Shown piece by piece: positions 26,398 through 41,776 of a stretch of 64,000 bases of DNA. The stretch comes from Oscillospiraceae bacterium (GTDB lineage: Bacteria; Bacillota; Clostridia; Oscillospirales; Oscillospiraceae): NCBI GenBank assembly GCA_902791215.1, contig CADAUZ010000017.1:1-64000 (forward strand). The letters run 5' to 3'. Numbering within the stretch: the first letter of the stretch is position 1; the number at the start of each line of letters is the position of its first letter. Position numbers and translations under genes: made by a program. Below the pieces are notes generated by a model. That model worked only from the letters and a program-made list of their open reading frames with translations, had not been told where the DNA came from and ran no database searches.

Positions 26398-26506
26398 TAT
26401 AAGCTCCGCTGCGGTATAGTTTACACACGCAAAAGCATTTCAAACGCGCTCATCCACAGCCGGCCCGAGATGCTTTTTGCACGCTTGCCGCCGGGGAGGA
26501 GCAGAC

Positions 26507-29500
26507 ATGCAGGATCTGGAAACGAGAGCGACAAAACGATATAACGAGAGAAGGAGGAGCACCGCGCGCAAGTACGGCATCGGTCTGTTGGCCCTGCTGG
26601 TCCTGCTTTGTACGGCGGCTGCTCTTTTGCTGCCCGCCTTCACGCTGGAGAAGGATGTCTTCTGCGGGCTGGAGGAGCATACGCATACGGAGGCCTGCTA
26701 TGAACTGGTCCCGGTCTGCGTCGTGGAGGAGCATGCGGCTCATACCCATACGGACGCCTGCTTCGAGACCGCGCGGGAGCTGAGCTGCGGCCTCGAAGAG
26801 AGCGAGGGCCACACCCACACCGACGCCTGCTTCAAAGAGGAGAAGGCGCTTACCTGTGTCCTGGAAGAGGACGAAGGCCACGCCCACACGGACGCATGCT
26901 ATATCGAAGAGCGGGAGCCTGTCTGCGGCATCGTTGAGACCGAGGGCCATGCCCACGACGATAGCTGCTGGAGCACCGAGCAGGACCTTGTCTGCGAACT
27001 CGAGGAGAACGAGGAGCATCAGCATGACGATGCCTGCTATATCGAGACGTCCGTCCTTGTCTGCGGCGAAGAAGAGCGCGAAGCCCATACCCACGACGAA
27101 AGCTGCTATGTGACGCGCCTTGTCCCGAACTGCGGCGAGGAAGAACGCGAGGGCCATACCCATACCGACGAATGCTATACCGTGAAGCAGAAGCTTGTCT
27201 GCGAACTTCCCGAAGATGCGGGCCACACCCATACCGACGCATGCTATACCGATACACAGAAGCTGATCTGCACCCTCCCCGAGGATGAGGGCCACACGCA
27301 CAGCGAGGCGTGCATGGAGGAAAAGCTTGTCTGCGAAAAAGAGGAGCACACCCACAGCCTGCAGTGCTATTCCAACCCCGAAGCGGTCGAGAGCGAGGCC
27401 GCCTGGGTCCTGAGCTTCCCCACGTTCGGCGAGGACGCGACGCACCTTGAGCGTCTGCTCGGCATCGCGGAGTCGCAGCTCGGCTACCAGGAGAGCGCGG
27501 AAAACTATCTGGTGGACGAGAATAAGTCTCTCCACGGCTACACCCGCTTCGGCGATTTCTGCGGCGAGCCTTACGCCGACTGGAACGCCATGTTCGTGAG
27601 CTTCTGCCTGCATTATGCCGGCATCGACCCGGCGATCTTCCCGGCCGAGGGCGACGCGCAGAGCATGATCGACGCGCTCACCGAGAAGGAACTGTATATC
27701 CCGAACGGGACGGAGGGCTTCCTGCCGCGTCCCGGCGATCTGATATTCTTTGATAACATCTACACGGGGACCTACACTGTCCGCGTGGGCATTGTCACGT
27801 CCGTTGACCGGGAGCTCGGCGTCCTCAATGTCATGGAGGGCGACAGCGCCGACAGCGTGGCCGAGTGCAGATACGCCCTGGACGACACGACGATCCTGGG
27901 CTACGGCGTCCTGCCCGAGGCTCTGCGTGCGGAAGCGGACGCCGAAGCCGACACCACCGCCGAAAGTACCGACACCAAGGACGCGGACACCAAAGCTGCG
28001 GATACCAAAGCTGACGAGACCAAGGCTGACGAAACCAAGGCCGACGAGACCAAAGCTGACGAGACCAAGGACGGCGAGACCAAGGCCGACGAGACCAAAG
28101 CTGACGAGACCAAGGCTGACGAGACCAAGAACGGCGAGACCAAAGCTGACGAGACCAAGGCCGACGAGACCAAGGACGACGAGACCAAGGACACGGACAC
28201 CAAGGACGACGCAAAGACCGGCGACGCGAAGGACGCAGATTCCGAGCCCAACATCACAGAGTCCAAACTGAAAATGAAGGCCGGCAACCCGATGCTTCTG
28301 GGAGATCCCGCCCAGTTAAATCTTGTTGATCTGACAAACGGCGGTGGCTATATCAGACCGACTGAGACTGCCTATAAGGGCTTGGAGCGCGGGCAAGAGG
28401 TGGAACTCAAATTCCATTTTAAAATTGCCAATGAGCACCTGACGGAAGCATTACAAAACAACTGGTACTATGATCTGAGCAATTATATCGGGGATGGACC
28501 TGATAAAATCTTCTCCTCCATAGATGGAGTAACGGGCGGGCAGCTTATGTCCGGTACCGATATAGTCGGAAGCTATGAGATCAAAGACGGTAAATTTATC
28601 ATTAAGCCCAATCCAGATCTGTTAATAGGGTTCGATCACGACTTGGAGGGCAGTTTTACTTTTGATGCAAAGGTGAACAAGAACTTCTCCCCGGAAGAAA
28701 ATGTCCAGACGATCACGTTCCCGGGAGAAGGAACTTCCACTTTCCAGTTCAATGAGAAGAAAGTCAACCACAGCAAGACCGTCAGCGCGACAGAAGGCGG
28801 AAGCAGCGCACAGGGAGACAGTGCGCAGTTGGTAGAGGAAAACGGTAAATACTACCTGTATTATAAAATCCACATGCAGCCGCATCAGACTCTTGATTCG
28901 CTCAGCTTTACCGATACCCTCTCTGCCGGGCAGAAGCTTGATGCCGACAGCATTAAGCTTAACGGAGAGTCTGTTAGCGGCCAGAATGTAAGTGACAGCG
29001 GTTTTTCCTTTGATGTTGCGCAGCATCTGGAGGATCAGGGCAAGACCATCTCGGACTGGCAAAATTTTGACGTCACCTACCGTGCGGAGATCACTGACGT
29101 AGATGCACTTAAAGCCGGAAACCTGAAGGATCTCACCAATGAAGCCAACTATACATGGACAGGTGATACTGCGAAAGACAAGACCACGGTCAATCCGAAG
29201 TTTGACAAGGAGCTGTATTCGAGCAAGGCTGTCGGCGGCCTGGACGGTGTCTATGTGGGCGGCGGCAATGTAGACGTGATCAAAGATGGAGACGGTTTTT
29301 ACCTCGAGTACCGCATCACGGCCACACCGAACACGGAGACAAGCAACCTGACGATCACGGACACCATCGGCGCTGGGCAGGAGCTCGTTGCAGGATCGGT
29401 CTCTTATCAGGTTGGCAATGATGGTTCAGTGAAGCCTGCGAGTGTTACCTCGACTGACAGTGGCTTTACCTATAAAATCCCGGAAACGGTTTCTGCCAAC

Positions 29501-32500
29501 ACGCCTGTCATCATGACTTACCGGGTCAAGCTGACGCCGAATACAGAAGGAGATACTTCGCCTCTGGGAAGTCCAAAAACGAACACCGCAAAATGGACCT
29601 GGGAAGGTAAACCCTCGGAGAACACCACCACCGTCACACCCAAAGAGCCGGAGCCGAGGTTTGGCGTGACCAAATCGGCCGACGCTCTCGAGGCGGGACC
29701 CGGTGATGAAGTCACCTATACCATCACCATTGTAAACCCGGACCCGGGACATGTGGATCTCAAAGATTATCCCTTCAACGACTATATTGCAAACTACCCG
29801 TTCACGGTGAAGCCGGAGAGTTTTCATGTCACAAACAGCAACGGAACGGAAATCAGCACCGGTGATCCGACATGGAACCAACCGGACACCACCACTGCAC
29901 CCGGCAGCAGCTACAAGCTCTTTACCTACAACTTCCCGGAGGGCTCTAAAGACAGAGAATACACCATTACCTATACCATCAAACTCGGCGATGACGGCAA
30001 TGCGGGCACCCGGGCGCTTATTAACCGCGCTGTGATCGGCGAAGGCGAAGATAACAGCAATACCACTGTCGACTACGATAAACCGACAGTTAAGAAGAAC
30101 TGGACAGAGGCGGGCACGGGCACGGATGACAACATCGTCGCCTGGACGATCCGCGTAGAAGTGCCGAAGGACAAAAGCTTCAAAGATGTTGTCGTTAAAG
30201 AGAGCGACTTTATGGGCGGTCCGACCCAGTGGGACCTCAAGGATCTGATCATAGACTGGACTTCTCTCAATGTCTATGAAGACGATGGAACCGGAAAACC
30301 CAAGGGCGATGCTATCATTGAGGGAGATATGACATACAAAGTCAATCCCACTGAAAACACCATCACCTTCCCGGAACTCAACGCCTCACGCATTATCACC
30401 CTCAACACGAAGCTCCCCGATGGCCTGAAATTTGCGGATCTTGCCAAGCAGGGCTACTATGTCAAGAACACCGCCTCCCTGACGGTCAAAGGCGAGGGTG
30501 TCGATTCCTCGACCGACTCCCATACCTACGCAAAGCAGGATTACAGCTTTACGAAGGATGGCGTGCTCCAGGGTGAAAAGACGAACGATGGGCGCCCGCT
30601 CTGGAAGTGGACGGTCACGATCAACAATGAAACGCTTGAACTCGATCCGGATATTTTGCGCCCCGTTTTCACGGATACCATTCCCGAAGAAATGGAGCTT
30701 TATCCGGCTGATGGCAAAAACGTCAAAGTCAGTTTTTATGCTCGGATTCAGGGTATAAACAGAGATGGCAATAAGGTCAGCCCAGGCGGCGAGGCAAACA
30801 TTCATTGCACCCCGCGCGATAACGAGTTTGGCTTCAATATCGTTGAGGAGCTGAGAAAGGCCCTCGGACAATACGTAAATGCGCCCGAAGGTGTGAGCGG
30901 CGTACAGTATACGATCACGTATTCTACCACTGTCACTGAAGAACTGTGGGCCGAGATGAAAGAGACTGTCGACAATTACAGCTTCACCAACAAGACAAAA
31001 CTCTTGGATGAAGACGGCGGCACCTTGAAAACCACAGAAGATACCGTGACCTATGAGTATAAGAATGTTATTGATAAAGTAGGAGAAGCTATCAACAATT
31101 TCACCCTTGAGTATAAAGTCAAGGTAAATCCGGAAGGCCTGAAGCTCAACAACGGGAAAGACTATACGGTCTATGACAAACTGAGCACAGATTTAACGCT
31201 TGATACGACATACATAAAGGTGTACGAGGGCGCAGAAACGGAGGCTGACCTTGTATATCCCAAGGAGCCTACGCCGGTTATTGTCAGTTATGATGACAAT
31301 ACCCGCACGCTGGCGTTCAGTCTCCCGGATGGGAAGGCTTATATCATAGTCTTTCGTGTGGCGCCTACTCCCAACAAGGACAACAAGTATTCCAACACAG
31401 TTGTTCTTCGTACGGACACGCTGCAATTCAAGGACACGGAAGAGACCGAGCATGAGTTCCATTCTGGGGCGGAGGTTCATGCTGCTCATGGAGATTTCAG
31501 TCTGCTCAAGACCGATCAGTTCAACCCGGCCTCAAAGCTGAAGAACGCAGTGTTTAAGCTTTATGAGGTAGAACTGGCGAACAACTACGCCATGGTAGGT
31601 GAGCCGAAACGGCTGCCTGACGCTACTACGACATTTACGTCGAACGAAAACGGCGTGGTTGAGTTTACCGGCGTGGACTTTATGGAAGGCAAGCTCTATT
31701 GCTGGCAAGAGACTGAGCCAGCAGACGGGCACGTGCTGACCGATGAATCCATGCACTACTTCTGCATCTATAATAAGTACACTTCTGCCGGCCTCACAAA
31801 AGGTGACAACTACGAACATCACTGGAGCTATGACGGTCTGACCGATGGACTCAAGGTAAAAATCAGGTCTTTTTTGGAAATGGAGCCAAATACTACAGAG
31901 CCCTTCTCGGTTAAAGAGATCATGGAAAAGGCGGGTGACGACGCTGAGAAAAAGGCAGCCGCAAACCTCATCCTCAGTGAGCTTGCCGGTGAACTGAGCC
32001 AGATATCGTTTGACAGAGCCGAGAATCTGGACCACGGCGCACAGGACGCCAACAACATCATCGTCCTCAGCGAACTGAGCGGCTACCAGTGGACGTGGCG
32101 CAACCCCGATGACCAGACCGCTCAGGCGGTTCTCAAGGGCACAAAGCTGCTCCATGGCCTTGACTTGGAGGCAGGGGAGTTCGCCTTCCGCCTCGACGAC
32201 ATGAGCATGGGCAATGAGGATGATCCGACCCGCGTTCAGATCGTGAAAAACGATGCCAACGGCGACTTTGCGTTTTCTGCGCTCTCCTTCAAAAAACCCG
32301 GTATATACCACTATCAGATCACTGAGTATCCCGGCAAAAACTCTGTTCCGGGTGTGATCTATGATACGACGAAGTATCAGGTCGAGATCGAGGTCCTGCA
32401 GTCGGATATCGGAAACCGCGCGGGTGTTCCCGAAGAGCGCATCAGGTACTACAAGAACGGTCAGGAGATGGAAAAGGCTTTCTTCAACAACATTGAGGAC

Positions 32501-35206
32501 AAGGCCAGCCTCACCATCATCAAGACCTTCTCCGGCGATTTTATCAAAACGGATGCCTTCGAAAACAGCGGTGTGAAGGATAATCTCCGCTTCGAGATCC
32601 GCAAAAAGAAAACCGGCGAGCTTATTAAAACGGTGTTCTACTCTGAGATGTCCGGCGGGACCTACACGCTGACCGAGGGCATCGAGTCCAATACGGTATA
32701 CACCGTGACGGAGAAAGACGCCGATATTCCCGGTGCCGTGCGTACCACGATTTACAGTTCGGTGCGCGAGCCGAAGGAAACCGACTGGCAGAAGAACGCC
32801 ACCGATACCGCGACGGTCAATACCAACGGCGACAAGCCTGCCTTCGTAAACTATGACAACAGCTATGAGCCGCAGGTCATGAAGATGAAGCTCAAAAAGC
32901 TGTGGTACAGTGAAGGCTCCCGCGAAGAGTCCGGAAGCACAGTCGAAACTATGGAACTGGCCACTGCCCCCAACGGTGTGGATGAAATCTTCTTTAAGCT
33001 CCAGCGCTATGAGAGGAATGGATGGAATTTCGTCGATAAGAAGTATGAGACGGAGTATTTGCTTCCTGTGAACGGATTGTACGCCTTTGACGATTATTAC
33101 ATCCTTTCCCCGACCATGAGCTGGGCGAAGGAACTGGAAAACATGCCCTTGGGCAAATACCGCGCGGTAGAGATCGAAAAGGTCGGGGATGGAGATCCCC
33201 AGCAGTGGAAGATCGTCGACCAGAGCGATGTGGTCTATTTGAACAATCAGGAGATTACACTGCATAACGGTTATGCTGTCGCAAAGGACGTATCCGGCAG
33301 CGAGAGCGGCATCCTAGACGGCAAAGACGGTACGGTCTACATTTGCAACCGCACGTTGGAGCTTGACTTTGTCAAGGCCTGGAAGGATAAGGACGGGCAG
33401 AATGTAACTGATCCCTTTGAAAAATACAACATCCAGTCCATCACCTTCCAGCTCATGCAGGCCACAAGCCCGGACGACGAAGCGACACCGGTTGCAGGCA
33501 AGACCTGGACCATGACCAGCGCCAATCAGGACGAACCGATCCACTTCGACGGCCTCCTGAGCCAGGATAAGGAGGGCAACGACCTGTATTACAGCGTCAC
33601 GGAGAAGATCATATTGAACGATGACACGGAGCTCAATCCCGATAGCTTTGCGATCATGTCCGCTGACGGTGAGACTCCCTTTGTCGGCGTGGAGCCCTCT
33701 GACGAACCCCAGGCCATCACCAATGTCGAGCAGCCCATCGGCATCACGATCAAGAAGGTGTGGAATAATGTGGATGCGGAGGAACGGCAGACCGTCTATG
33801 TTCAGATGCAGGCGTTTTACAATAATAGTTTCCACATTGTCAATGATCCAGACATCAAGACCGACGCAGGAAATGGACCCATATTAGGCACTGACGGCCT
33901 GTACGCCATCGAATGGAATGACACAAGCAACGAGACCATCACCTTCAGCAATCTGTTCCGGTACTATGACGGTAAGTTCAATGAACAGCCCAAGTATGAC
34001 AATGCCGATGTCTCTATGGTAAAGTTCGTGGAATTTCGAAAAAATGGAGACGCTTATGAGGAATTCAGCGGCGACACGTACATGGTTACGTACTCCTTCG
34101 AGGGGAAAAACGGGCCGCAAGACGCTCGTGACGGCATATCTCCGACGGAAAACGGCACCCTGACCATCACCAATAGCAAACGTGAGAGCACAAAACTGAT
34201 GGTCACCAAGAGCTGGCCTGAGAAGAAGGATACCAAAATCTATTATCAGGTGCACCTCGTCGCGGAAGACGGTGCGGACGGAGTGCTGGGGCTGTACGAT
34301 AGTAATGGAATTCAAAACAACGAGGAAAAGCATATTCATTACGGTTCTCATTGGAGCAATAGTGTACTGTTTCTTAAATATGACTCTGTTAACTCGGCTT
34401 GGGAAACGGCGGAATTTGAATTCCCGAAAAAAATGAATATCAACGGGAGTAGTAAATATCTTGCCGGCGTCTATGTCGTGGAGGTGGGAGAAGACGGCAC
34501 TCCGCTTGATAACAACAACGACGGGATGACGGATTTGCAGACTGAAAACTGGAAGATCACCTACACCTTTGACGGCAAAACCGTCAGCAAGTCCAATCCC
34601 GTTCCCGCCGGTTCCAACGGCCCCCTGACCATCAAAAACGGAGATGAGACTCCGCCGTCGATTGATCTGAAAATCGTCAAGGTCGACGCAAACGACCTCA
34701 GCAAGGAGCTTGACCAGGCGAGAAAGCTTGTGGCGACCTTCACCCTCAAACGCTCCGACAGCCCGGACGCGGCGACTAACGATTCCTATGCGGCTATGGA
34801 CACGTATACCAAAGTCTCCACGGGTGTAAACGGCGAGCTGAAATTTGAAAACCTTCTTGACGGTTATTACCGCCTGGTGGAGGTGAACGCCCCGCGGTAC
34901 TATGTCAACAGCGGCGAGCCGTTTGATTTCACCGTCAAGGATGGCGTCTTGACCGCGCATGACAGCAGACTCATCGTGCATGACCAAGATGTAAGCAAGC
35001 CTGACGGCGGCAAGGTGTACACCTACAAGATCGGCAACGAGAAGGGTGTTGAGCTGCCGTCCACCGGCGGCGTGGGTGTCGGCGTGTACCGCATTGGCGG
35101 CGCGGCGCTGCTGCTCGCGGCCACAGGACTTGCGGCGGCAGAGTCTCTGAAACGTTCCCGCGCCGACAGGGCGCGCAGACGAAAAGGGGGTGAGGGCGAG
35201 ACATGA
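26507..35206 (+). CDS. Giant LPXTG surface adhesin with His/Cys repeats and CHAP-like pseudoenzyme domain
   Basis: A 2,899-residue wall-anchored protein, probably the pilus tip or ancillary adhesin. A long N-region signal (helix about 25-46) is followed by eleven C-x(n)-HxHxxxC repeats (53-287) and a CHAP-like domain (about 310-475). There the expected WC is WN (Asn360) and the expected HVGIV is RVGIV (Arg426). A 15-unit xDETK spacer (about 488-567) comes next. Then a long series of beta-sandwich repeats of the DUF11/Cna-B/isopeptide type covers about 590-2830, including an FctA-like domain near 1875 and several Cna-B modules. LPSTG begins at 2850, followed by a membrane helix and basic tail. 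The ATG at 26507 has GGAGGAG upstream; an in-frame ATG at 26477 has none. GC falls markedly after about 28,285. Confidence 0.88.
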   Translation: MQDLETRATKRYNERRRSTARKYGIGLLALLVLLCTAAALLLPAFTLEKDVFCGLEEHTHTEACYELVPVCVVEEHAAHTHTDACFETARELSCGLEESEGHTHTDACFKEEKALTCVLEEDEGHAHTDACYIEEREPVCGIVETEGHAHDDSCWSTEQDLVCELEENEEHQHDDACYIETSVLVCGEEEREAHTHDESCYVTRLVPNCGEEEREGHTHTDECYTVKQKLVCELPEDAGHTHTDACYTDTQKLICTLPEDEGHTHSEACMEEKLVCEKEEHTHSLQCYSNPEAVESEAAWVLSFPTFGEDATHLERLLGIAESQLGYQESAENYLVDENKSLHGYTRFGDFCGEPYADWNAMFVSFCLHYAGIDPAIFPAEGDAQSMIDALTEKELYIPNGTEGFLPRPGDLIFFDNIYTGTYTVRVGIVTSVDRELGVLNVMEGDSADSVAECRYALDDTTILGYGVLPEALRAEADAEADTTAESTDTKDADTKAADTKADETKADETKADETKADETKDGETKADETKADETKADETKNGETKADETKADETKDDETKDTDTKDDAKTGDAKDADSEPNITESKLKMKAGNPMLLGDPAQLNLVDLTNGGGYIRPTETAYKGLERGQEVELKFHFKIANEHLTEALQNNWYYDLSNYIGDGPDKIFSSIDGVTGGQLMSGTDIVGSYEIKDGKFIIKPNPDLLIGFDHDLEGSFTFDAKVNKNFSPEENVQTITFPGEGTSTFQFNEKKVNHSKTVSATEGGSSAQGDSAQLVEENGKYYLYYKIHMQPHQTLDSLSFTDTLSAGQKLDADSIKLNGESVSGQNVSDSGFSFDVAQHLEDQGKTISDWQNFDVTYRAEITDVDALKAGNLKDLTNEANYTWTGDTAKDKTTVNPKFDKELYSSKAVGGLDGVYVGGGNVDVIKDGDGFYLEYRITATPNTETSNLTITDTIGAGQELVAGSVSYQVGNDGSVKPASVTSTDSGFTYKIPETVSANTPVIMTYRVKLTPNTEGDTSPLGSPKTNTAKWTWEGKPSENTTTVTPKEPEPRFGVTKSADALEAGPGDEVTYTITIVNPDPGHVDLKDYPFNDYIANYPFTVKPESFHVTNSNGTEISTGDPTWNQPDTTTAPGSSYKLFTYNFPEGSKDREYTITYTIKLGDDGNAGTRALINRAVIGEGEDNSNTTVDYDKPTVKKNWTEAGTGTDDNIVAWTIRVEVPKDKSFKDVVVKESDFMGGPTQWDLKDLIIDWTSLNVYEDDGTGKPKGDAIIEGDMTYKVNPTENTITFPELNASRIITLNTKLPDGLKFADLAKQGYYVKNTASLTVKGEGVDSSTDSHTYAKQDYSFTKDGVLQGEKTNDGRPLWKWTVTINNETLELDPDILRPVFTDTIPEEMELYPADGKNVKVSFYARIQGINRDGNKVSPGGEANIHCTPRDNEFGFNIVEELRKALGQYVNAPEGVSGVQYTITYSTTVTEELWAEMKETVDNYSFTNKTKLLDEDGGTLKTTEDTVTYEYKNVIDKVGEAINNFTLEYKVKVNPEGLKLNNGKDYTVYDKLSTDLTLDTTYIKVYEGAETEADLVYPKEPTPVIVSYDDNTRTLAFSLPDGKAYIIVFRVAPTPNKDNKYSNTVVLRTDTLQFKDTEETEHEFHSGAEVHAAHGDFSLLKTDQFNPASKLKNAVFKLYEVELANNYAMVGEPKRLPDATTTFTSNENGVVEFTGVDFMEGKLYCWQETEPADGHVLTDESMHYFCIYNKYTSAGLTKGDNYEHHWSYDGLTDGLKVKIRSFLEMEPNTTEPFSVKEIMEKAGDDAEKKAAANLILSELAGELSQISFDRAENLDHGAQDANNIIVLSELSGYQWTWRNPDDQTAQAVLKGTKLLHGLDLEAGEFAFRLDDMSMGNEDDPTRVQIVKNDANGDFAFSALSFKKPGIYHYQITEYPGKNSVPGVIYDTTKYQVEIEVLQSDIGNRAGVPEERIRYYKNGQEMEKAFFNNIEDKASLTIIKTFSGDFIKTDAFENSGVKDNLRFEIRKKKTGELIKTVFYSEMSGGTYTLTEGIESNTVYTVTEKDADIPGAVRTTIYSSVREPKETDWQKNATDTATVNTNGDKPAFVNYDNSYEPQVMKMKLKKLWYSEGSREESGSTVETMELATAPNGVDEIFFKLQRYERNGWNFVDKKYETEYLLPVNGLYAFDDYYILSPTMSWAKELENMPLGKYRAVEIEKVGDGDPQQWKIVDQSDVVYLNNQEITLHNGYAVAKDVSGSESGILDGKDGTVYICNRTLELDFVKAWKDKDGQNVTDPFEKYNIQSITFQLMQATSPDDEATPVAGKTWTMTSANQDEPIHFDGLLSQDKEGNDLYYSVTEKIILNDDTELNPDSFAIMSADGETPFVGVEPSDEPQAITNVEQPIGITIKKVWNNVDAEERQTVYVQMQAFYNNSFHIVNDPDIKTDAGNGPILGTDGLYAIEWNDTSNETITFSNLFRYYDGKFNEQPKYDNADVSMVKFVEFRKNGDAYEEFSGDTYMVTYSFEGKNGPQDARDGISPTENGTLTITNSKRESTKLMVTKSWPEKKDTKIYYQVHLVAEDGADGVLGLYDSNGIQNNEEKHIHYGSHWSNSVLFLKYDSVNSAWETAEFEFPKKMNINGSSKYLAGVYVVEVGEDGTPLDNNNDGMTDLQTENWKITYTFDGKTVSKSNPVPAGSNGPLTIKNGDETPPSIDLKIVKVDANDLSKELDQARKLVATFTLKRSDSPDAATNDSYAAMDTYTKVSTGVNGELKFENLLDGYYRLVEVNAPRYYVNSGEPFDFTVKDGVLTAHDSRLIVHDQDVSKPDGGKVYTYKIGNEKGVELPSTGGVGVGVYRIGGAALLLAATGLAAAESLKRSRADRARRRKGGEGET
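26663..27367 (+). repeat. Eleven HxHxxxC protein repeats
   Basis: Each unit is about 20-25 residues and contains a Cys, an acidic stretch, then HTHTDAC or a close variant. The count of HxHxxxC motifs is eleven. The ligand density suggests metal binding outside the cell, which is inference. Confidence 0.92.
27970..28206 (+). repeat. 15-bp tandem repeats encoding xDETK spacer
   Basis: About fifteen units of GCTGACGAGACCAAG or close variants encode ADETK, with DGETK, NGETK and DDETK variants. It separates the CHAP-like domain from the repeat stalk. The near identity at DNA level makes copy-number change likely. Confidence 0.93.
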
Positions 35207-35244
35207 TCCGTCCAACCCCCAGCATCCGGGACGTCCCGGCCTAT

Positions 35245-35392
35245 GCCTCCCTCTCTGAGGGAGGTGGCACGGCGCGTCCCCCCGCAAGCGCCGTGACGGA
35301 AGGAGTCCCCATGACTTGCACCCGACGAAAGGATCGCGACTCCCTCAGTCACCAGTGTGCGCACTGGTGCCAGCTCCCTCGGAGAGGGAGCC
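35245..35392. repeat. Palindromic intergenic element, family A (copy 1)
   Basis: The ends GCCTCCCTCTCTGAGGGAGG and CCTCGGAGAGGGAGCC flank inner hairpins (ACGGCG...CGCCGT, and CACCAGTGTGCGCACTGGTG). It lies between adhesin and major pilin genes. Related copies are at 37666-37794 and 48231-48372. Confidence 0.85.
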
Positions 35393-35454
35393 AAGCGCAA
35401 ACCAACCTCTATGCAAAATAAAAAAATAAACAAACACGAAAGGAAACACGAAAC

Positions 35455-37503
35455 ATGAAGAAACTTGCAAAAGTCCTCTCCCTCGCGCTGGTTCTCGTCA
35501 TGGTGTTAAGCCTCGGCGGAACTGCGTGGGCGGACGTTACCGTTACTGTCGCAACTATCAAAGACCAGGGCGGCGGGACCCATGCCCACACATTTAAAGC
35601 TATCCAGCTTTTTACGGGTGAACAGACAGATGAGCAGAATACCCTGAATATACTTGGTAATATTCAGTGGAGCGATGATCTCAATTCCGATACTCTGAAA
35701 AACAATGTTATTACTGCCATCAGAGCGATTGACAATACAATTGCATTGACTGATGTAGACACGACAAATCCTTCAAATCCTCTCGGTTCTTCTGCCACTG
35801 AAGTTGCGGAAGCAATCTCTACCTTTACGCAGGCTCAGGCAGAGCAGTTTGCAGAACTGCTTGATGAGTATCTGAAGGGCCTCACGGGAACTACGCTTAC
35901 CGGAAGCACAACTTTAGCTACAGGCTATTATCTGATCGTTGACACGACAACGATCGGAGAAGGCGATGCGCGAAACGCTTCTCTGCTCCAGCTTACACAA
36001 GATATTACAGTAGCAGTAAAGACTGATATCCCGTCCCAGGAAAAGAAAGTTAAGGACAACGCGCCCGCAGACGGCGACAGTACGATTGCGAGTACTAAAG
36101 CTTTAGGCACTACAAACATAGATCGCGGCGAAGGATACAACGATGTCGCAGACTACAGCATCGGCGATACTGTGCCGTTTGAAATCTTTTCCCGTATTCC
36201 CAATATGCATTATTATGATACTTATTACTTCTGCTTCCATGATACAATGGACCCCGGTCTGACGTTGGCAAGAGACAGCATCAGAATAAAGATCGGTGAA
36301 TATGAAATTTATAAGCCGGCTGATGATGATTATACTGGAGGGGCAGATGAAATGCGTACCCTGTGGAATAGTCTTGTGCCAACCGATGGTTCCCACAGCG
36401 ATAATAGCCCAGATTGCAGCTTCCATGTTACATTTTCCAATCTGAAAGTTTTTGTTAATAATAATCTTGAGAAGATAATGGGTACAACAGCGTATACCGC
36501 AAAAGTTGCGGAATGCACTTCTGCAGGGAAGACCATTTCTTCCGATGATGCGGAAGGTTTACCAATCAAGGTTAGTTTTGATGCGGTGTTGAATATTAAT
36601 GCTAATGTTGGCGATGCATTAGGAAATATCAATAAATCCAAGGTTGAATACAGCAATAATCCGGATGAGGAAACGAAGCACGGAGAAACACCGGAAGACA
36701 AGGTAATTGTATTTACATACAAATTGGATAACAATAAGTACGATGGCAAAGCCGCTACACTTTCTTCCAGTGCAACTTATTGGAAAGATCGTGCATGCAA
36801 TGAATCTTGCGAATCTACTGATGCCGCAGCCAAGTATGCTGTGGATAGTTCGAAGAAATACGTCAAAATTGGAAGTACCTGGCATGAACTCCTGGATGGT
36901 GCCAAGTTCATTCTGACAAAAGAAGTGTCTGGAACAACATTTGTAGCCATATTTGACAACCGCCAGCACGTTATAGGATGGACAAGTAAAGCTGCCTACA
37001 ATACCACAGCAATCAAGGCGAATCCTGACAATTTTTCCAACATTGATCAGAACGACCTTCGCGATGGCACGATTAATAATGATGGTGTCGGTTATGGTGC
37101 AAGTGAGTGTGTAACGCTGATCATGGAGTCAAACAACAATGGGTATTTTGGCGCAATCGGTCTCGATGAAGGAACATACAAGCTGGTTGAGGTTGCGCCG
37201 CCTGAGGGCTACAATGCTGCTGCGGATCTTCAGTTCACGATTACTGCAACTGAGATGACTGATCGACAGAATTGGACTACTACATCGGCAGATGCAATCA
37301 CAAAACTTGAGATTACAGCTGGTGCTACGACAGACGGAGATGAAACGACCGGTGTCGTTACCCTGAATGTAGCGAACAACAAGGGCATCTCGCTGCCCGA
37401 GACCGGCGGTGTCGGCACTACGCTGTTCTACGTTTTCGGCTCCATGCTCGTCATTGCCGCGGCCGTGTACTTCGTGACCAAGAAGCGCTCCGAGGTGGAG
37501 TGA
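35455..37503 (+). CDS. Major pilin subunit, LPXTG isopeptide-forming fimbrial protein
   Basis: A 682-residue secreted protein with a clear signal peptide (cleavage near AWA-D). An N-terminal pilin domain (TFKAIQLFTG...) and middle isopeptide-type domains follow. A Cna-B-like domain holds the E-box-like YKLVEVAPPEGYN near 575. LPETG starts at 647, followed by a membrane helix and KKRSEVE tail. The domain order matches SpaA/FimA backbone pilins polymerised by class C sortases. A classical WxxxVxVYPK pilin motif is not obvious. Two closely spaced Cys (ACNESC) near residue 447 are unusual. GC is visibly lower than in neighbouring genes. A palindromic element separates it from the adhesin, with AGGAAA as a weak Shine-Dalgarno. 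Confidence 0.87.
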   Translation: MKKLAKVLSLALVLVMVLSLGGTAWADVTVTVATIKDQGGGTHAHTFKAIQLFTGEQTDEQNTLNILGNIQWSDDLNSDTLKNNVITAIRAIDNTIALTDVDTTNPSNPLGSSATEVAEAISTFTQAQAEQFAELLDEYLKGLTGTTLTGSTTLATGYYLIVDTTTIGEGDARNASLLQLTQDITVAVKTDIPSQEKKVKDNAPADGDSTIASTKALGTTNIDRGEGYNDVADYSIGDTVPFEIFSRIPNMHYYDTYYFCFHDTMDPGLTLARDSIRIKIGEYEIYKPADDDYTGGADEMRTLWNSLVPTDGSHSDNSPDCSFHVTFSNLKVFVNNNLEKIMGTTAYTAKVAECTSAGKTISSDDAEGLPIKVSFDAVLNINANVGDALGNINKSKVEYSNNPDEETKHGETPEDKVIVFTYKLDNNKYDGKAATLSSSATYWKDRACNESCESTDAAAKYAVDSSKKYVKIGSTWHELLDGAKFILTKEVSGTTFVAIFDNRQHVIGWTSKAAYNTTAIKANPDNFSNIDQNDLRDGTINNDGVGYGASECVTLIMESNNNGYFGAIGLDEGTYKLVEVAPPEGYNAAADLQFTITATEMTDRQNWTTTSADAITKLEITAGATTDGDETTGVVTLNVANNKGISLPETGGVGTTLFYVFGSMLVIAAAVYFVTKKRSEVE

Positions 37504-37537
37504 TCCCGCGATTAACGCACAAATCCCGGTTGACTCC

Positions 37538-37614
37538 GTAGGGGCCGACGCCTATCACGCGGCCCGTGTCATGGTACGATAACCGACACGGGACGCCCGG
37601 GGGTCGTCCCCTAC
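37538..37614. repeat. Palindromic intergenic element, family B (copy 1)
   Basis: It begins GTAGGGGCCGA and ends TCGTCCCCTAC, with inner GGCCCGTGTC/GACACGGG pairing. It shares ends with copies at 59045-59158 and 62056-62169. Confidence 0.8.
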
Positions 37615-37665
37615 AGGGAAAAACCAATGTTTCTGTGATAACACCAACGATTGCACCCGTGCATT

Positions 37666-37794
37666 GCCTCCCTCCTTGAGGGAGGTGTCACGGCGGCTTG
37701 CCGCCGTGACGGAAGGAGTCCCCACGGTCTGCACCCGCCGAAAGGACGGGGGACTCCCTCAGTCGCTGCGCGACAGCTCCCTCAGAGAGGGCGC
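37666..37794. repeat. Palindromic intergenic element, family A (copy 2)
   Basis: The ends GCCTCCCTCCTTGAGGGAGG and CTCCCTCAGAGAGGGCGCC flank the inner hairpin CACGGCGGC/GCCGCCGTG and GTCGCTGCGCGAC. It is close to copy 1 in layout. Confidence 0.85.
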
Positions 37795-37882
37795 CCCATC
37801 ACCTCCGGCATGACCAAAACGCACAGCTTTCCCTGCGCGCTTTGCTGATCCCGGAAACTTTCCCAACGAAGGAAAAAGCCCT

Positions 37883-38824
37883 ATGACCTGGTTAAAAAAG
37901 AATTTCGTCTCCCTGTTGGTGCTGCTCATGGCGCTGGTCGGGGTGGGGCTGCTGGTCTATCCCACCTTCTCCGACTGGTGGAACAGCTTCCACCAGAGCC
38001 GCGCCGTCGCGGGCTACGCCCAGGCGGTCGCCGAGCTCGACCCCGACCGCTACAAGGAGGTCTTCGAGGCCGCCGAAAAGTACAACGAAAAGCTCTGCAA
38101 AAGCGGTGTCCTGTGGAACATGAGCGACGCGGAGAAGAAGGAATACAACGCCCTGCTGGATGTCAACGGCTCCGGCATCATGGGCTACATCGACATCCCG
38201 AAAATCAACGTCACCCTGCCCATTTACCACGGCACCGACGAGGCCGTGCTGCAAATCGCAATCGGCCATCTCGCGGGGACGAGCCTGCCCGTCGGCGGCA
38301 CCGGGACCCACTGTTCCGTCTCCGGCCACCGCGGCCTGCCAAGCGCCCGGCTCTTTACCGACCTTGACAAGCTGGCTCCCGGCGACAACTGGACCGTTAC
38401 GGTCCTCGACCGCACCGTCACCTACGAGGTCGACCAGATCCGCATCGTGCTCCCCTCCGAGGTGTCCGAGCTCAAGATCGACCCGGAGAAGGACTACTTC
38501 ACCCTCGTCACCTGCACCCCCTACGGCATCAACTCCCACCGCCTGCTGGTGCGCGGCCACCGCGTGGAAAACGCGCAGGGCAAGGTCATCGTCCTGGCCG
38601 AGGGCGTGCTCATCGAACCGGTGTACCTGGCGCTCGTGATCGGCGTGCCGATCCTGGTGCTGCTGTTCATCTGGTCCATGGCGGACGCCGGACGGCGCGT
38701 GGACTACCTCCGCCTCAGCCGCTCCGCCGCCGACGCGCTCAACCACCGCATCGAAAGACGCAGACAAACAGACGACTCCCGGGCACGCAAAAAGCCCGGT
38801 GACAAAGGAGATTCCCAATCATGA
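37883..38824 (+). CDS. srtC: Class C sortase (pilin polymerase)
   Basis: A 313-residue membrane transpeptidase with an N-terminal anchor helix (about 10-28), a sortase beta-barrel, and a second hydrophobic helix near the C-terminus (about 250-270), the layout of class C enzymes. Catalytic residues are His149 (SGHRGL), Cys211 (TLVTCTPYG) and Arg220 (NSHRLLVRG). It joins pilin Thr to a Lys of the next subunit. A classical DP(W/F/Y) lid motif was not evident, although SDWWNSF near residue 32 could fill the role. Its stop overlaps the next gene's ATG. Confidence 0.93.
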   Translation: MTWLKKNFVSLLVLLMALVGVGLLVYPTFSDWWNSFHQSRAVAGYAQAVAELDPDRYKEVFEAAEKYNEKLCKSGVLWNMSDAEKKEYNALLDVNGSGIMGYIDIPKINVTLPIYHGTDEAVLQIAIGHLAGTSLPVGGTGTHCSVSGHRGLPSARLFTDLDKLAPGDNWTVTVLDRTVTYEVDQIRIVLPSEVSELKIDPEKDYFTLVTCTPYGINSHRLLVRGHRVENAQGKVIVLAEGVLIEPVYLALVIGVPILVLLFIWSMADAGRRVDYLRLSRSAADALNHRIERRRQTDDSRARKKPGDKGDSQS

Positions 38825-39579
38825 GGAAAAGAAGATTCATCCGCCTGGCCCTGGCCCTGACGCTGGCACTGCTGACGGTCGTGTCAGCTCTGCCGCCCGC
38901 GATGGCCGCGCCCGACCTCACGAAAACCGACTGCTCCATCACCCTTGACCTGAAAGGCATGGAGGGCGGCAGCGTCGCGCTCTTCTATGTGGCGGGCGTC
39001 ACACAGAAGGACGCAAACTACGTTTATGACGTGGAGAGGGGCGACTTTGCCGACTCCGATACCGCCAAAAGAATCCCCGGCCTCAGCGAAAGCAAGCTGG
39101 ACAAGCAGAACCCCACGCTCTCGGCGATCCTCGTCAAGGAGGCCGACACGAAAAAGCTCAGCCCCCGCAAGACAGCTTCGATCACCGGCGGCAAGGTCGA
39201 GTTCAAGAATCTGCCCGTGGGCCTGTACCTGCTGTATCAGCTGACTGCCTCCAACGGCAGCAAGAAGCTGACGCCGTTCCTGCTTTCGGTGCCGCAGCGG
39301 GACCCGGAGACCGGCGAGGAGATCTACGCGGTGAGCGCCGCGCCCAAGAGCGGCATCACCACGCCGCCGCCCTCCGTCACCCCGTCCCATACCCCGACAC
39401 CCACCCACACCCCGTGGCCCAGCTACACGCCCTATTATCCCACCGTCACCTATACGCCCGGCAAGAGCTACGTCTACCTCCCGCAGACCGGCCAGCTCTG
39501 GTGGCCGGTGCCGGTGTTGGCCGCGCTCGGCGTGGTGCTGGTGATCTCGGGCCTGCTCCTGCGCCGCCGGGGGGACTGA
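38821..39579 (+). CDS. LPQTG-anchored minor pilin or surface protein
   Basis: A 252-residue protein with signal peptide (cleavage near AMA-A), one Cna-B-like domain (about 30-175), a Pro/Thr/Tyr-rich stalk (TPTHTPWPSYTPYYPT), LPQTG at 220-224, a hydrophobic helix and the basic end RRRGD. Size, proline-rich stalk and position between two sortase genes fit a basal pilin that fixes the pilus to the wall. It overlaps srtC by four bases and ends three bases before the next sortase gene. Confidence 0.82.
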   Translation: MRKRRFIRLALALTLALLTVVSALPPAMAAPDLTKTDCSITLDLKGMEGGSVALFYVAGVTQKDANYVYDVERGDFADSDTAKRIPGLSESKLDKQNPTLSAILVKEADTKKLSPRKTASITGGKVEFKNLPVGLYLLYQLTASNGSKKLTPFLLSVPQRDPETGEEIYAVSAAPKSGITTPPPSVTPSHTPTPTHTPWPSYTPYYPTVTYTPGKSYVYLPQTGQLWWPVPVLAALGVVLVISGLLLRRRGD

Positions 39580-39582
39580 GCC

Positions 39583-40236
39583 ATGGAGACGCGAAAGGGC
39601 AGACGCGCCCTGTCGGCGCTGCTGATCCTGCTGGGCCTTGCGATGCTCGGCGGGGCGCTGGGCCTCGTGCTGCACAACATGCGGGAGAATAACCGTGCCG
39701 CCGAGGCAAGCGGGTATGTCCTTGCCCGCATCATCGAGACCCGCCCCGAGCTCCGCCTGCCCGAGCCTACGCCCCCGCCCACTGAGGGCGGCATGGAGGA
39801 CTTAGAGCCTGTGATCCCCGACATGCCCACAAAGGAGATCGACGGCTGGAATTATATCGGCACGCTCGCCATCCCTTCGCTGGAGCTGGAGCTGCCCGTC
39901 ATGGACGACTGGGACATGGACAGCCTCAAGTACAGCCCCTGCCGCTACCAGGGAAATTACTATGCCGATGATCTGGTCATCTGCGGCCACAATTTCCCCA
40001 GCCATTTCAGCCCCATCAAGTTCATCGAGGTCGGCGCCGAGGTCACATTTACCAACGTCGAGGGCGTCGTCTACCGCTACATCGTCTCCAACCGCGAGAC
40101 CGTGCGCCCCACGGATGTGCAGTACATGATCGACAACCAGAGCGACACGGCGGAGAAGTGGGACCTCACACTCTTCACCTGCAACACCGGCGGCCAGACC
40201 CGCTGCGCCGTCCGCTGCATCCGCGCCGACGGGTGA
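39583..40236 (+). CDS. Second sortase, likely housekeeping/anchoring type
   Basis: A 217-residue membrane transpeptidase with one N-terminal helix, a Pro-rich linker and a compact sortase domain. His136 (CGHNFPSHF), Cys200 (LFTCNTGG) and Arg207 (GQTR) form the active site. There is no C-terminal membrane helix, unlike the class C enzyme. It is therefore more likely to attach the finished pilus or the LPQTG protein to the wall. The exact class (D/E or a clostridial subclass) cannot be fixed by eye. It is the last gene of the island and is followed by a terminator. Confidence 0.88.
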   Translation: METRKGRRALSALLILLGLAMLGGALGLVLHNMRENNRAAEASGYVLARIIETRPELRLPEPTPPPTEGGMEDLEPVIPDMPTKEIDGWNYIGTLAIPSLELELPVMDDWDMDSLKYSPCRYQGNYYADDLVICGHNFPSHFSPIKFIEVGAEVTFTNVEGVVYRYIVSNRETVRPTDVQYMIDNQSDTAEKWDLTLFTCNTGGQTRCAVRCIRADG

Positions 40237-40302: not shown

Positions 40303-40336
40303 TGTGACACGAGTGTGATGGAATGTGTGATAAACT
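40303..40336 (+). promoter_or_regulatory. Triple TGTGA direct-repeat promoter, copy 1
   Basis: TGTGAC at 40303, TGTGAT at 40314 and TGTGAT at 40326 are spaced 11 and 12 bases start to start. The last repeat runs into a -10-like TAAACT (40331-40336). There is no -35 consensus. The identical layout precedes the double-glycine gene. Direct repeats at helical spacing suggest binding of an activator of response-regulator type. Confidence 0.75.
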
Positions 40337-40376
40337 TTAACCATCAAGAATACAAAACCGAAAGGAATGAATCAAT

Positions 40377-41339
40377 ATGAAAAAACTGATTTGCATGGTC
40401 ATGGCGGTCCTGCTGCTCGCGTCCCTGAGCGCCGCCGCATTCGCAGACTCCGGCATCGGGGTCGAGCCCGGCCAGCACATGGCCGACTTCACCGTCTCCC
40501 TCACCGACGGCTCTACCGCCACCCTCTCCGAGCTTCTCAAGGAGAAGGACCTGGTCGTGCTCAACATCTTCGCCAGCTGGTGCGGCCCCTGCGAGAACGA
40601 GTTCCCCGAGATGGAGAAGGTCTATCAGGCCAACAAGGACCGCATGGAGCTTGTCGCGGTCTCCGGCTATGAGGACGACACTATGGACATCATCTCCGAC
40701 TACAAGGCCAGCCACAGCCTCAGCTTTCCGATGGGCCTTGCGGGCGAGGACCTGAGCTACCTCAACGTCCCCGGCTACCCCACCACCTTCTTCATCGACA
40801 AGAGCGGCAATGTCGGCTTCATCAAGGTCGGCTCCTTCCCGAGCGCGGAGGAGTTCGAGGGTAAGGTCAAGATCTTCCTCGCCGCCGATTACGACGGCAA
40901 GCCCCTCAAGACCGAGCAGGCCGTGAACATCCTGCCCTATATCCTCCTGCTCCTTGCGCTGGGCGGACTGCTGCTCGTCATCGGCAGATGGTGCCTGCTT
41001 AAAAAGGCGGGCAGACCCGGCTGGCACAGCCTCATCCCGATCCTCAGCAGCTACCAGGAGTACGATATCTGCTGGAACGGTTGGTTCGGCGTTGCCGCGG
41101 ACCTGTGCCTGCTGGTTGCGCTGTTCACGAACAACCTCGGCATCAGCCCCATCATTCACTACGTCCTCATGGCCGCAAGCGTCATCCTCGGCATCCCCCA
41201 GAGCTTCAAGCTCGCCAAGGCCTTCGGCCAGGGCAAGCTGGTCGGCGTGCTGCTGATGCTCCCCGGCCTCAAGGAGATCAGCCGCTTCGTCCTCGGCGTG
41301 AGCAAGGCCAAGTACCAGCCCCTCGCCTCCAGAGTGTAA
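40377..41339 (+). CDS. TlpA/ResA-like thioredoxin fused to a membrane domain
   Basis: A 320-residue protein. A signal peptide (1-22) is followed by a TlpA/AhpC-type thioredoxin fold (about 28-180) with active site WCGPCE near 65-70 and the cis-Pro segment VPGYPTTFFID. A transmembrane helix (about 185-203) comes next, then the segment GRPGWHSLIPILSSYQEYDICW and further helices. This resembles the DUF5684 membrane domain found at the C-terminus of clostridial membrane proteins. The thioredoxin domain is therefore extracytoplasmic, held by a multi-pass C-terminal module. It could reduce or form disulfides in exported proteins. The shared promoter motif with the next gene suggests that the GG-leader protein may be a partner. 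Confidence 0.82.
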   Translation: MKKLICMVMAVLLLASLSAAAFADSGIGVEPGQHMADFTVSLTDGSTATLSELLKEKDLVVLNIFASWCGPCENEFPEMEKVYQANKDRMELVAVSGYEDDTMDIISDYKASHSLSFPMGLAGEDLSYLNVPGYPTTFFIDKSGNVGFIKVGSFPSAEEFEGKVKIFLAADYDGKPLKTEQAVNILPYILLLLALGGLLLVIGRWCLLKKAGRPGWHSLIPILSSYQEYDICWNGWFGVAADLCLLVALFTNNLGISPIIHYVLMAASVILGIPQSFKLAKAFGQGKLVGVLLMLPGLKEISRFVLGVSKAKYQPLASRV

Positions 41340-41381
41340 TGTTGACGGCGGCTGCGGCACTGTGGTATACTGTACCCGGAA

Positions 41382-41415
41382 TGTGACAAATGTGTGATGC
41401 TTCGTGTGATACAAT
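41382..41415 (+). promoter_or_regulatory. Triple TGTGA direct-repeat promoter, copy 2
   Basis: TGTGAC at 41382, TGTGAT at 41393 and TGTGAT at 41405 have the same 11 and 12 base spacing as copy 1. The third repeat again overlaps the -10 element (TACAAT, 41410-41415). Between the repeats, only the A after TGTGAC, the G after the first TGTGAT and the G before each TGTGAT are kept. Confidence 0.78.
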
Positions 41416-41462: not shown

Positions 41463-41714
41463 ATGAAACATATGAGCAAGCTGAATGACAACGAACTGGA
41501 AAAGATCTCCGGCGGCACGATTTCGCAGGATGAGGCGGTGAGCAGCGCACTGGGCTATGTGGCGCTGTCGAGAGGCGATATCGACTTTCTGAAAAGGGCT
41601 GAGCTGAACGGGCAGACCTACGACATCAAGTTCTACAAGGGCGGGATGGCGTACTCGTTCAGCGTAGACGCCGAGTCCGGCGCGGTCCTCGCCTACAGCC
41701 AGGATTTCGCCTGA
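41463..41714 (+). CDS. Double-glycine leader peptide fused to PepSY-like domain
   Basis: An 83-residue protein. Residues 1-18 (MSKLNDNELEKISGG after MKH) are a bacteriocin-type leader ending in the Gly-Gly cleavage site used by C39-peptidase ABC exporters. The remainder (about 19-83) looks like a single PepSY-type alpha/beta unit: a helix DEAVSSALGYVAL, then strands with YDIKFYKGGMAYSFSVDAESGAVLAY. It has no Cys or Lan precursor features, so it is unlikely to be a lanthipeptide. It could be an exported inhibitor or chaperone-like protein. No C39 exporter is encoded in the window. The start may be ATG 41463 or 41472. It is a single-gene unit with its own regulated promoter and strong terminator. 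Confidence 0.75.
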   Translation: MKHMSKLNDNELEKISGGTISQDEAVSSALGYVALSRGDIDFLKRAELNGQTYDIKFYKGGMAYSFSVDAESGAVLAYSQDFA

Positions 41715-41732: not shown

Positions 41733-41776
41733 GGCGGGGGTGTGAATGCAGATTTCACACCCCCGCCGCTTTTTTT
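41733..41776 (+). terminator. Terminator of the double-glycine gene
   Basis: A perfect 14-bp stem GGCGGGGGTGTGAA/TTCACACCCCCGCC with a six-base loop is followed by GCTTTTTTT. Confidence 0.95.

Follow-up and report, generated by a model that had tools for sequence, protein, structure and literature searches.

Genetic context of the two promoter sites

The window, i.e., the whole 64-kb stretch of DNA analyzed here, carries on its forward strand two copies of a spaced repeat, at positions 40303-40331 and 41382-41410, which a first-pass annotation had read as three TGTGAC/TGTGAT half-sites shared by two promoters. A pattern scan of the window confirmed both as zero-mismatch matches to TGTGAY-N5-TGTGAY-N6-TGTGAY. 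At ≤3 mismatches, these were the only two matches within the 64 kb; the shuffled window gave a mean of 0.09 matches at this threshold, and two were reached in 1 of 100 shuffles.

The first site comprises two 11-bp direct repeats (TGTGACACGAG / TGTGATGGAAT; 40303-40324), proposed as an activator box on the grounds of the exact match, the family logo, and the spacing, and a TG-extended -10 element (TG-A-TAAACT; 40328-40336), whose hexamer starts 17 bp past the start of repeat 2 and which contains part of the supposed third repeat. A gap of 40 bp separates the end of this promoter from a gene (40377-41339, forward strand) whose 320-aa product joins a TlpA-like thioredoxin (AhpC-TSA/Redoxin) to a DUF5684-like membrane part, as judged from Pfam and orthologues; the DUF5684 match (23.3 bits) lies under its cut-off of 27.4, and a signal peptide was recognized by eye. 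The second site begins 42 bp past this gene and has the same build, with two exactly matching 11-bp direct repeats (TGTGACAAATG / TGTGATGCTTC; 41382-41403) as the proposed activator box and, from its sequence and its spacing to repeat 2, a TG-extended -10 (TG-A-TACAAT; 41407-41415) that stops 47 bp before the next gene. This gene (41463-41714, forward strand) encodes an 83-aa protein with a double-glycine leader, MKHMSKLNDNELEKISGG, assigned by eye, and a PepSY-like core that scored 23.4 bits in Pfam, just under the cut-off of 24. The hexamers TAAACT and TACAAT, noted at first pass as overlapping the last repeat, each belong to a TG-extended -10.

The remark that neither promoter has a -35 holds for the motif itself and fails for the surrounding DNA, where a separate sigma-70-like match, TTGACG-18-TATACT (41342-41371, forward strand; consensus match only), lies just 5' of the second site; the PepSY gene may receive extra basal expression from it. 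Downstream of the PepSY gene there is an intrinsic terminator-like hairpin (41733-41767, forward strand), one of two such matches in 2 kb against a shuffle mean of 1.8. On the other flank, positions 26477-40236 hold genes for large surface proteins (2909 and 682 aa) whose ends are LPxTG-like, along with sortase-like genes, all recognized by eye; this run is likely a pilus cluster, and it stops just before the first site.

Promoter anatomy

Promoter anatomy was measured at 80 loci of the candidate regulator described below, the best 80 of 150 relatives, chosen without reference to the motif. The promoter class that emerges has two TGTGACAnnTn repeats 11 bp apart, followed by a TG-extended -10 that starts 17 bp past the start of repeat 2. 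Between TGTGAY repeats in these best 80 of 150 loci, a spacing of 11 bp was found 87 times, 12 bp 14 times and 23 bp 15 times, and every remaining distance from 8 to 24 at most 3 times; spacings of 12 and 23 are those that involve the third element. The reversed-pattern control gave 0 throughout, except for 1 at 18. The distance from the start of repeat 2 to the start of the -10 was equally sharp in the same best 80 of 150 loci, at 17 bp in 57 cases and 0-1 for the other values from 12 to 22.

When the third element was left free, 67 of 82 distinct sites in the best 80 of 150 loci retained TG, while TGTG occurred in 27 and TGTGA in 10. Since TG is kept and TGTGA is mostly absent, the third element is a TG-extended -10 and not a half-site, and the third half-site of the first-pass annotation is ruled out; the TGTGAT at this position in both window sites is a coincidence. 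A larger set that includes motif-fetched loci gave the same picture (101 spacings at 11 bp; TG in 78/94, TGTG in 36/94, and TGTGA in 12/94). TG-extended -10 elements are found in Gram-positive promoters.

The logo built from 108 sites (≤2 mismatches) reads gTGTGACAgTTg TGTGACAg..cc TGTGnTAtAaT. Beyond it, a stretch around CCGTAA is also conserved, at +38 to +43 from the start of the box, just 3' of the -10 and at about the expected transcription start.

Genes downstream of the motif

Across the 3.19 Mb (67 contigs) of the genome from which the window comes, the triple TGTGAY pattern had 25 matches at ≤3 mismatches, among them 5 exact and 8 with one mismatch, against 6 for the reversed control. 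With the -10 added to the pattern, 19 matches were found at ≤3 mismatches and none in the reversed control, and 17 of the 19 sit on contigs other than that of the window. In this genome some 18 promoters make up the regulon that includes the two window genes, whose joint control, as proposed at first pass, is borne out as far as computation reaches.

Target genes in this genome were called by eye from the ORF maps of a simple gene finder. The first gene after the site encodes a double-glycine protein in 12 of 19 cases and a signal-peptide protein in 3, two of these TlpA-like; the remaining 4 comprise a zinc-ribbon membrane protein, a 66-aa membrane protein, a site with no clear gene, and a 3-mismatch match about 270 bp before the gene of a paralogous regulator. 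A gene start (ribosome-binding site plus ORF) lay within 160 nt of 53 of 55 distinct sites with ≤1 mismatch in the best 80 of 150 loci, a count that leaves out one site near a locus end. By a rule-based call, 39 of the 46 complete ORFs shorter than 200 aa after sites in the best 80 of 150 loci begin with a double-glycine leader, compared with 211 of 5000 after random positions in the same regulator loci.

The wider locus set, which mixes in motif-fetched loci and from which near-end sites and duplicates were left out, holds 116 sites, 109 with a gene and 66 with a leader (64 of the 88 shorter than 200 aa, vs. 184/5000 in the background). Inspection by eye added about ten variant leaders (VGG, QGG), and many other proteins of this set begin with signal peptides. 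At 30 site loci of other regulator-bearing genomes, lipoprotein-like and other secreted genes were commoner by eye than double-glycine peptides. A family of 43-45-aa ORFs, with no evident leader, follows the box at five loci of Pseudobutyrivibrio and Butyrivibrio (L209, L210, L212, L214, and L222), and in Butyrivibrio sp. AE3009 (L219) a site lies 5' of a gene that by eye resembles the membrane half of the TlpA fusion.

Full-length TlpA orthologues were present in 11 of the 102 genomes of the window's genus, and all 11 carry the site upstream (10 at ≤2 mismatches and one at 3; in one of the 11 the site lies some 230-260 bp upstream), so the motif does recur upstream of orthologues. Three weaker TlpA homologues among the 102 genus genomes all lacked an upstream site. 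The PepSY gene was recognized in three of the TlpA-orthologue loci, each time with a site. Near-identical LysM double-glycine peptides with similar boxes occur on different contigs (L081:7816-8049 and L085:6505-6738), and one genome (G015) holds several near-identical boxes; the sequence of these copies suggests dispersed duplication of promoter plus gene.

Candidate regulator

No regulator had been seen in the window, and a likely candidate lies on another contig of the same genome. It is a 270-aa protein (G000:C29:36609-37418) in which a receiver-like domain precedes a SARP-like winged helix of the OmpR/PhoB type, and its gene is the last of an operon that runs from a site through a 78-aa LysM double-glycine peptide, a DUF218 protein (assigned on the near-identical L119 locus), and a 168-aa protein to the regulator. 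The receiver (residues 3-111) matched PF00072 above the cut-off (E 3.2e-14), and the winged helix follows after about residue 125, where Trans_reg_C scored 16.4 bits, below the Pfam cut-off of 26.2; the fold search agrees with OmpR/PhoB. With the DNA-binding half as a profile, EmbR, a SARP-type protein of actinomycetes, came first as the best solved match (E 0.0087). Separate profile matches to OmpR/PhoB regulators span both domains. A BTAD domain was not detected in the DNA-binding half of three proteins, searched with Pfam at a maximum E of 5.

An AlphaFold model built with ten paralogues in the alignment reached a pLDDT of 88 and a pTM of 0.56, while 30 near-alike orthologues alone gave a poor DNA-binding half (mean pLDDT 62.5). 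The top PDB matches of this model in Foldseek were two-domain OmpR/PhoB regulators, such as DrrB, RpaA, and PhoP. Aligned across the two domains, these reach TM-scores of about 0.4 with an rmsd greater than 10 A, since the relative placement of the domains differs or, at a pTM of 0.56, is uncertain. Across 30 orthologues the DNA-binding half is nearly invariant and the receiver diverges quickly; the phospho-aspartate is kept as D in 42 and replaced in 38 of 80 orthologues (best 80 of 150).

Since the regulator gene is the last of a site-led operon, the protein probably amplifies its own expression. Few other loci are arranged in this way, however: a same-strand site lies within 3.5 kb upstream of the regulator in 11 of 72 loci (from the best 80 of 150), and 37 of the best 80 of 150 regulator loci had no site at all in the retrieved stretch. 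Self-control and close linkage are therefore not general. As to the linked response regulator that the first-pass annotation proposed to look for, an orthologue of the candidate co-occurs with the motif in two genera, without close linkage as a rule.

Distribution of motif and regulator

In the 102 genomes of the window's genus, with the motif called at ≤1 mismatch and the orthologue at ≥62% identity, the motif was found in 42, the regulator orthologue in 36, and neither in 60, and the control in none of the 102. All 36 genomes with the orthologue have the motif, compared with 6 of the 66 without it. These six (G009, G073, G075, G076, G077, and G086) stand against the preferred assignment; in G075 (96% complete, 6 sites) and G077 (83% complete, 11 sites) the absence of the orthologue is not easily due to missing sequence. 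Across 23 genomes from other genera of the order, neither the motif at ≤1 mismatch nor such an orthologue was found.

A scan of named genomes returned regulator loci of which the best 80 of 150 are 61-98% identical, with record titles that range from rumen Ruminococcaceae/Oscillospiraceae MAGs to Pseudobutyrivibrio and Butyrivibrio isolates; these best 80 of 150 loci held 91 sites at ≤2 mismatches, against 0 for the control. In regulator-bearing genomes, mostly Lachnospiraceae by title, the motif was present in 17 of 20 (TRTG allowed), but the remaining 3 had no site at ≤1 mismatch. Pseudobutyrivibrio xylanivorans DSM 14809, which is in culture, has 6 sites. The association was repeated in the genus of P. 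xylanivorans (Lachnospiraceae; 29 genomes, TRTG allowed, orthologue at ≥67% identity), where the motif occurs in 18 and the orthologue in 17 genomes; the motif accompanies the orthologue in 17 of 17 and occurs in 1 of the 12 others (G155), a further exception to the preferred assignment. Fisher p values were 1e-21 and 3e-7, uncorrected for kinship.

Kinship was considered on a RplA-RplK-NusG tree of 70 of the 102 genus genomes, restricted to genomes whose rplA is near-complete. This tree implies 11 changes of state for the regulator, at least 7 of them on supported branches. Among independent pairs, an average of 5.3 out of 7 show the motif changing in the same direction as the regulator and none shows the reverse, although the sign test on these pairs was borderline (median p 0.06).

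Signal input and export

In 80 of 80 loci (best 80 of 150), the gene that ends immediately 5' of the regulator gene encodes a homologue of the 168-aa protein, with 59-100% identity to one of two queries. This coupled protein is a plausible signalling partner of the regulator; in L119 (9498-10004) it had no Pfam or NCBIfam match above cut-off. Other neighbours of the regulator include a STAS protein with an RsbW-like ATPase (L140) and a SpoIIE phosphatase (L162), and from this gene neighbourhood the partner protein, perhaps together with a partner-switching module, would supply the signal in many species.

The NHLM exporter model TIGR03796 scored over its cut-off in 63 of the 102 genus genomes, comprising 36 of 36 with the regulator and 27 of 66 without it, and in 22 of the 36 regulator-bearing genus genomes the exporter lies within 10 kb of the regulator on the same contig. 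At L140, a C39 peptidase ABC exporter pair, TIGR03796 and TIGR03797, both over cut-off, is found near the regulator. The NHLM exporter would be the predicted handler of these double-glycine leaders; the one peptide scanned with NCBIfam (L119:13137-13337) matched neither the NHLP (nitrile-hydratase-like) nor the Nif11 leader models.

Comparison with known systems

The closest parallel in promoter geometry is AfsR of Streptomyces, a SARP whose dimer occupies two 11-bp repeats (-40 to -19), one subunit next to the other, and touches sigma region 4; the general SARP rule is direct repeats 11 (or 22) bp apart with the 3' repeat 8 bp from the -10 (PMC10936776). If the -10 hexamer is placed at -12 to -7, the repeats described here also fall at -40 to -19, and as two 11-bp direct repeats just 5' of the -10 they take the place of a good -35; as to the SARP spacing, 11 bp was counted 87 times and any other distance from 8 to 24 at most 15 times in the best 80 of 150 loci. 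From repeat 2 to the -10 we count 6 bp when the repeats are taken as 11-bp units, as in the afs box, and 10 bp when taken as heptamers. The heptamer count departs from the 8 bp of the general SARP rule, and it is with the 11-bp units of the afs box that the promoters agree. The proteins share an OmpR-type winged helix (fold search OmpR/PhoB; EmbR at E 0.0087), but here it is C-terminal, behind a receiver, and not N-terminal, and BTAD was not detected in the DNA-binding halves searched; for these two reasons we do not class the regulator as a SARP, although it would work like one. The hosts (Clostridia), the extended -10, and the targets seen, which are secreted proteins as opposed to antibiotic genes, also differ.

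PhoB binds direct-repeat boxes one helical turn apart. The candidate resembles OmpR/PhoB regulators in its receiver and winged helix, both in the fold search and in the profile matches over two domains, and differs in a Trans_reg_C score under cut-off, in the loss of the phospho-aspartate in 38 of 80 orthologues and in having, in 80 of 80 loci, a partner gene immediately 5' whose product matches no Pfam or NCBIfam family (both from the best 80 of 150). NisR and SpaR, lantibiotic regulators of the OmpR family, act at peptide promoters whose -35 region holds short direct repeats spaced by about 11 bp; their repeat sequence is another one, and the targets here are not lantibiotics. For export, the NHLP/NHLM systems have Gly-Gly-leader substrates and a C39 peptidase ABC exporter (Haft 2010; PMC2887384). 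Our loci resemble these systems in the exporter pair near the regulator and in the Gly-Gly leader of 39 of 46 small genes (best 80 of 150 loci), and differ from them in cores that look like LysM, SH3, or PepSY domains; the words "promoter" and "transcription" occur 0 times in the main text of that paper.

Proposed mechanism

The motif, its fixed geometry, its target genes, the orthologue footprint, and the co-occurrence with the regulator in two genera were all observed by computation. On this basis we consider it likely that the window sites represent an activator-dependent promoter class, read by a winged-helix dimer on 11-bp repeats, with the 270-aa protein of C29 as the most likely regulator. 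This protein would bind the repeats and would activate, rather than repress, the site-bearing genes, and an AfsR-like mode of activation offers the simplest reading of these promoters. The regulator dimer would sit side by side on the two direct repeats, which would stand in for the -35 element and upstream spacer; it would bring in the housekeeping RNA polymerase to read the TG-extended -10, and the latter would make up for the missing -35. The earlier proposal of a single response-regulator-type activator on tandem half-sites is supported by computation, with two half-sites plus an extended -10 in place of three half-sites. The predicted output consists of secreted or exported proteins: double-glycine proteins (LysM, SH3-like, PepSY, and zinc-ribbon), whose export and trimming would presumably fall to an NHLM-type C39 ABC exporter, together with signal-peptide proteins such as the TlpA-like thioredoxins.

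More tentatively, and with rather less than even confidence, a SARP-like activator with a decaying receiver may have spread with its box among gut Clostridia (at least two families), where it might exert global control over the cell surface and secretion (double-glycine proteins with LysM, SH3, or PepSY cores, and thioredoxins) and take its signal through the 168-aa protein and a STAS/RsbW-like/SpoIIE module instead of phosphorylation. If this holds, it would represent a new wiring of an activator, an anti-sigma-type switch, and double-glycine export, serving cell-surface proteins and not bacteriocins.

No description of the motif or the regulator was found in the open-access literature, judged by title or the start of the abstract. 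A simple DNA signature would point to a regulon of secreted proteins in gut Clostridia that have received little study, cultured Pseudobutyrivibrio and Butyrivibrio strains among them, and with a probable regulator named this prediction is directly testable. If true, the 11-bp direct-repeat geometry of Streptomyces SARPs would extend to Clostridia, with an extended -10, and the targets suggest large-scale double-glycine export of proteins with wall-binding-type domains (LysM, SH3-like).

Alternative explanations

The box could be read by another regulator, for instance a paralogous receiver-winged-helix protein, with the orthologue only travelling with an island or being one of several readers. 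Paralogues do adjoin sites on contig C7 of the window's own genome, where the nearest site has 3 mismatches, and also in G075: there a site is followed by genes for a double-glycine peptide and a paralogous receiver-winged-helix regulator. To go by these arrangements, paralogues may share the same box; the many sites of G075 and G077 in the absence of the orthologue point the same way. Yet distant homologues (E ≤ 1e-20) do not predict the motif, because they are present in 14 of the 60 genus genomes that lack both motif and orthologue, whereas the orthologue does predict it, in two genera of different families. The orthologue also shows much stronger conservation in its DNA-binding half than in its receiver, which is what a conserved box would demand. 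We therefore regard a different reader as unlikely, and the C29 protein as the better candidate.

Far less probable is that an alternative sigma factor recognizes the repeats as -35-like elements. The constant distance from repeat 2 to the -10 would suit such a factor, but the -10 conforms to the standard extended type (TGnTAnnnT), and the 11 bp between the second TGTGAC and the -10 are few for a -35 spacer. A box duplicated exactly, one helical turn on, suits a dimeric regulator, and no sigma factor was recognized by eye in the ORF maps. TGTGA is also the CRP half-site, and CRP and FNR bind inverted repeats. A regulon of the cyclic-nucleotide or FNR type would draw on this half-site and on paired small cyclic-nucleotide-binding-like proteins seen by eye near sites at L079:8783-9720 and L313:10598-11514; the repeats here, however, have the same orientation and lie 11 bp apart, and by eye these proteins have no obvious helix-turn-helix or other DNA-binding part, which leaves this reading highly improbable. 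Least credible of all is a local duplication of one promoter inside the window with no wider meaning. The two sites are only 1.1 kb apart, but chance and local duplication are both ruled out by the shuffles, the genome-wide matches and the orthologue footprint: 17 further matches lie on other contigs, the sites are kept in relatives, and the spacers and -10 elements differ between the two window sites.
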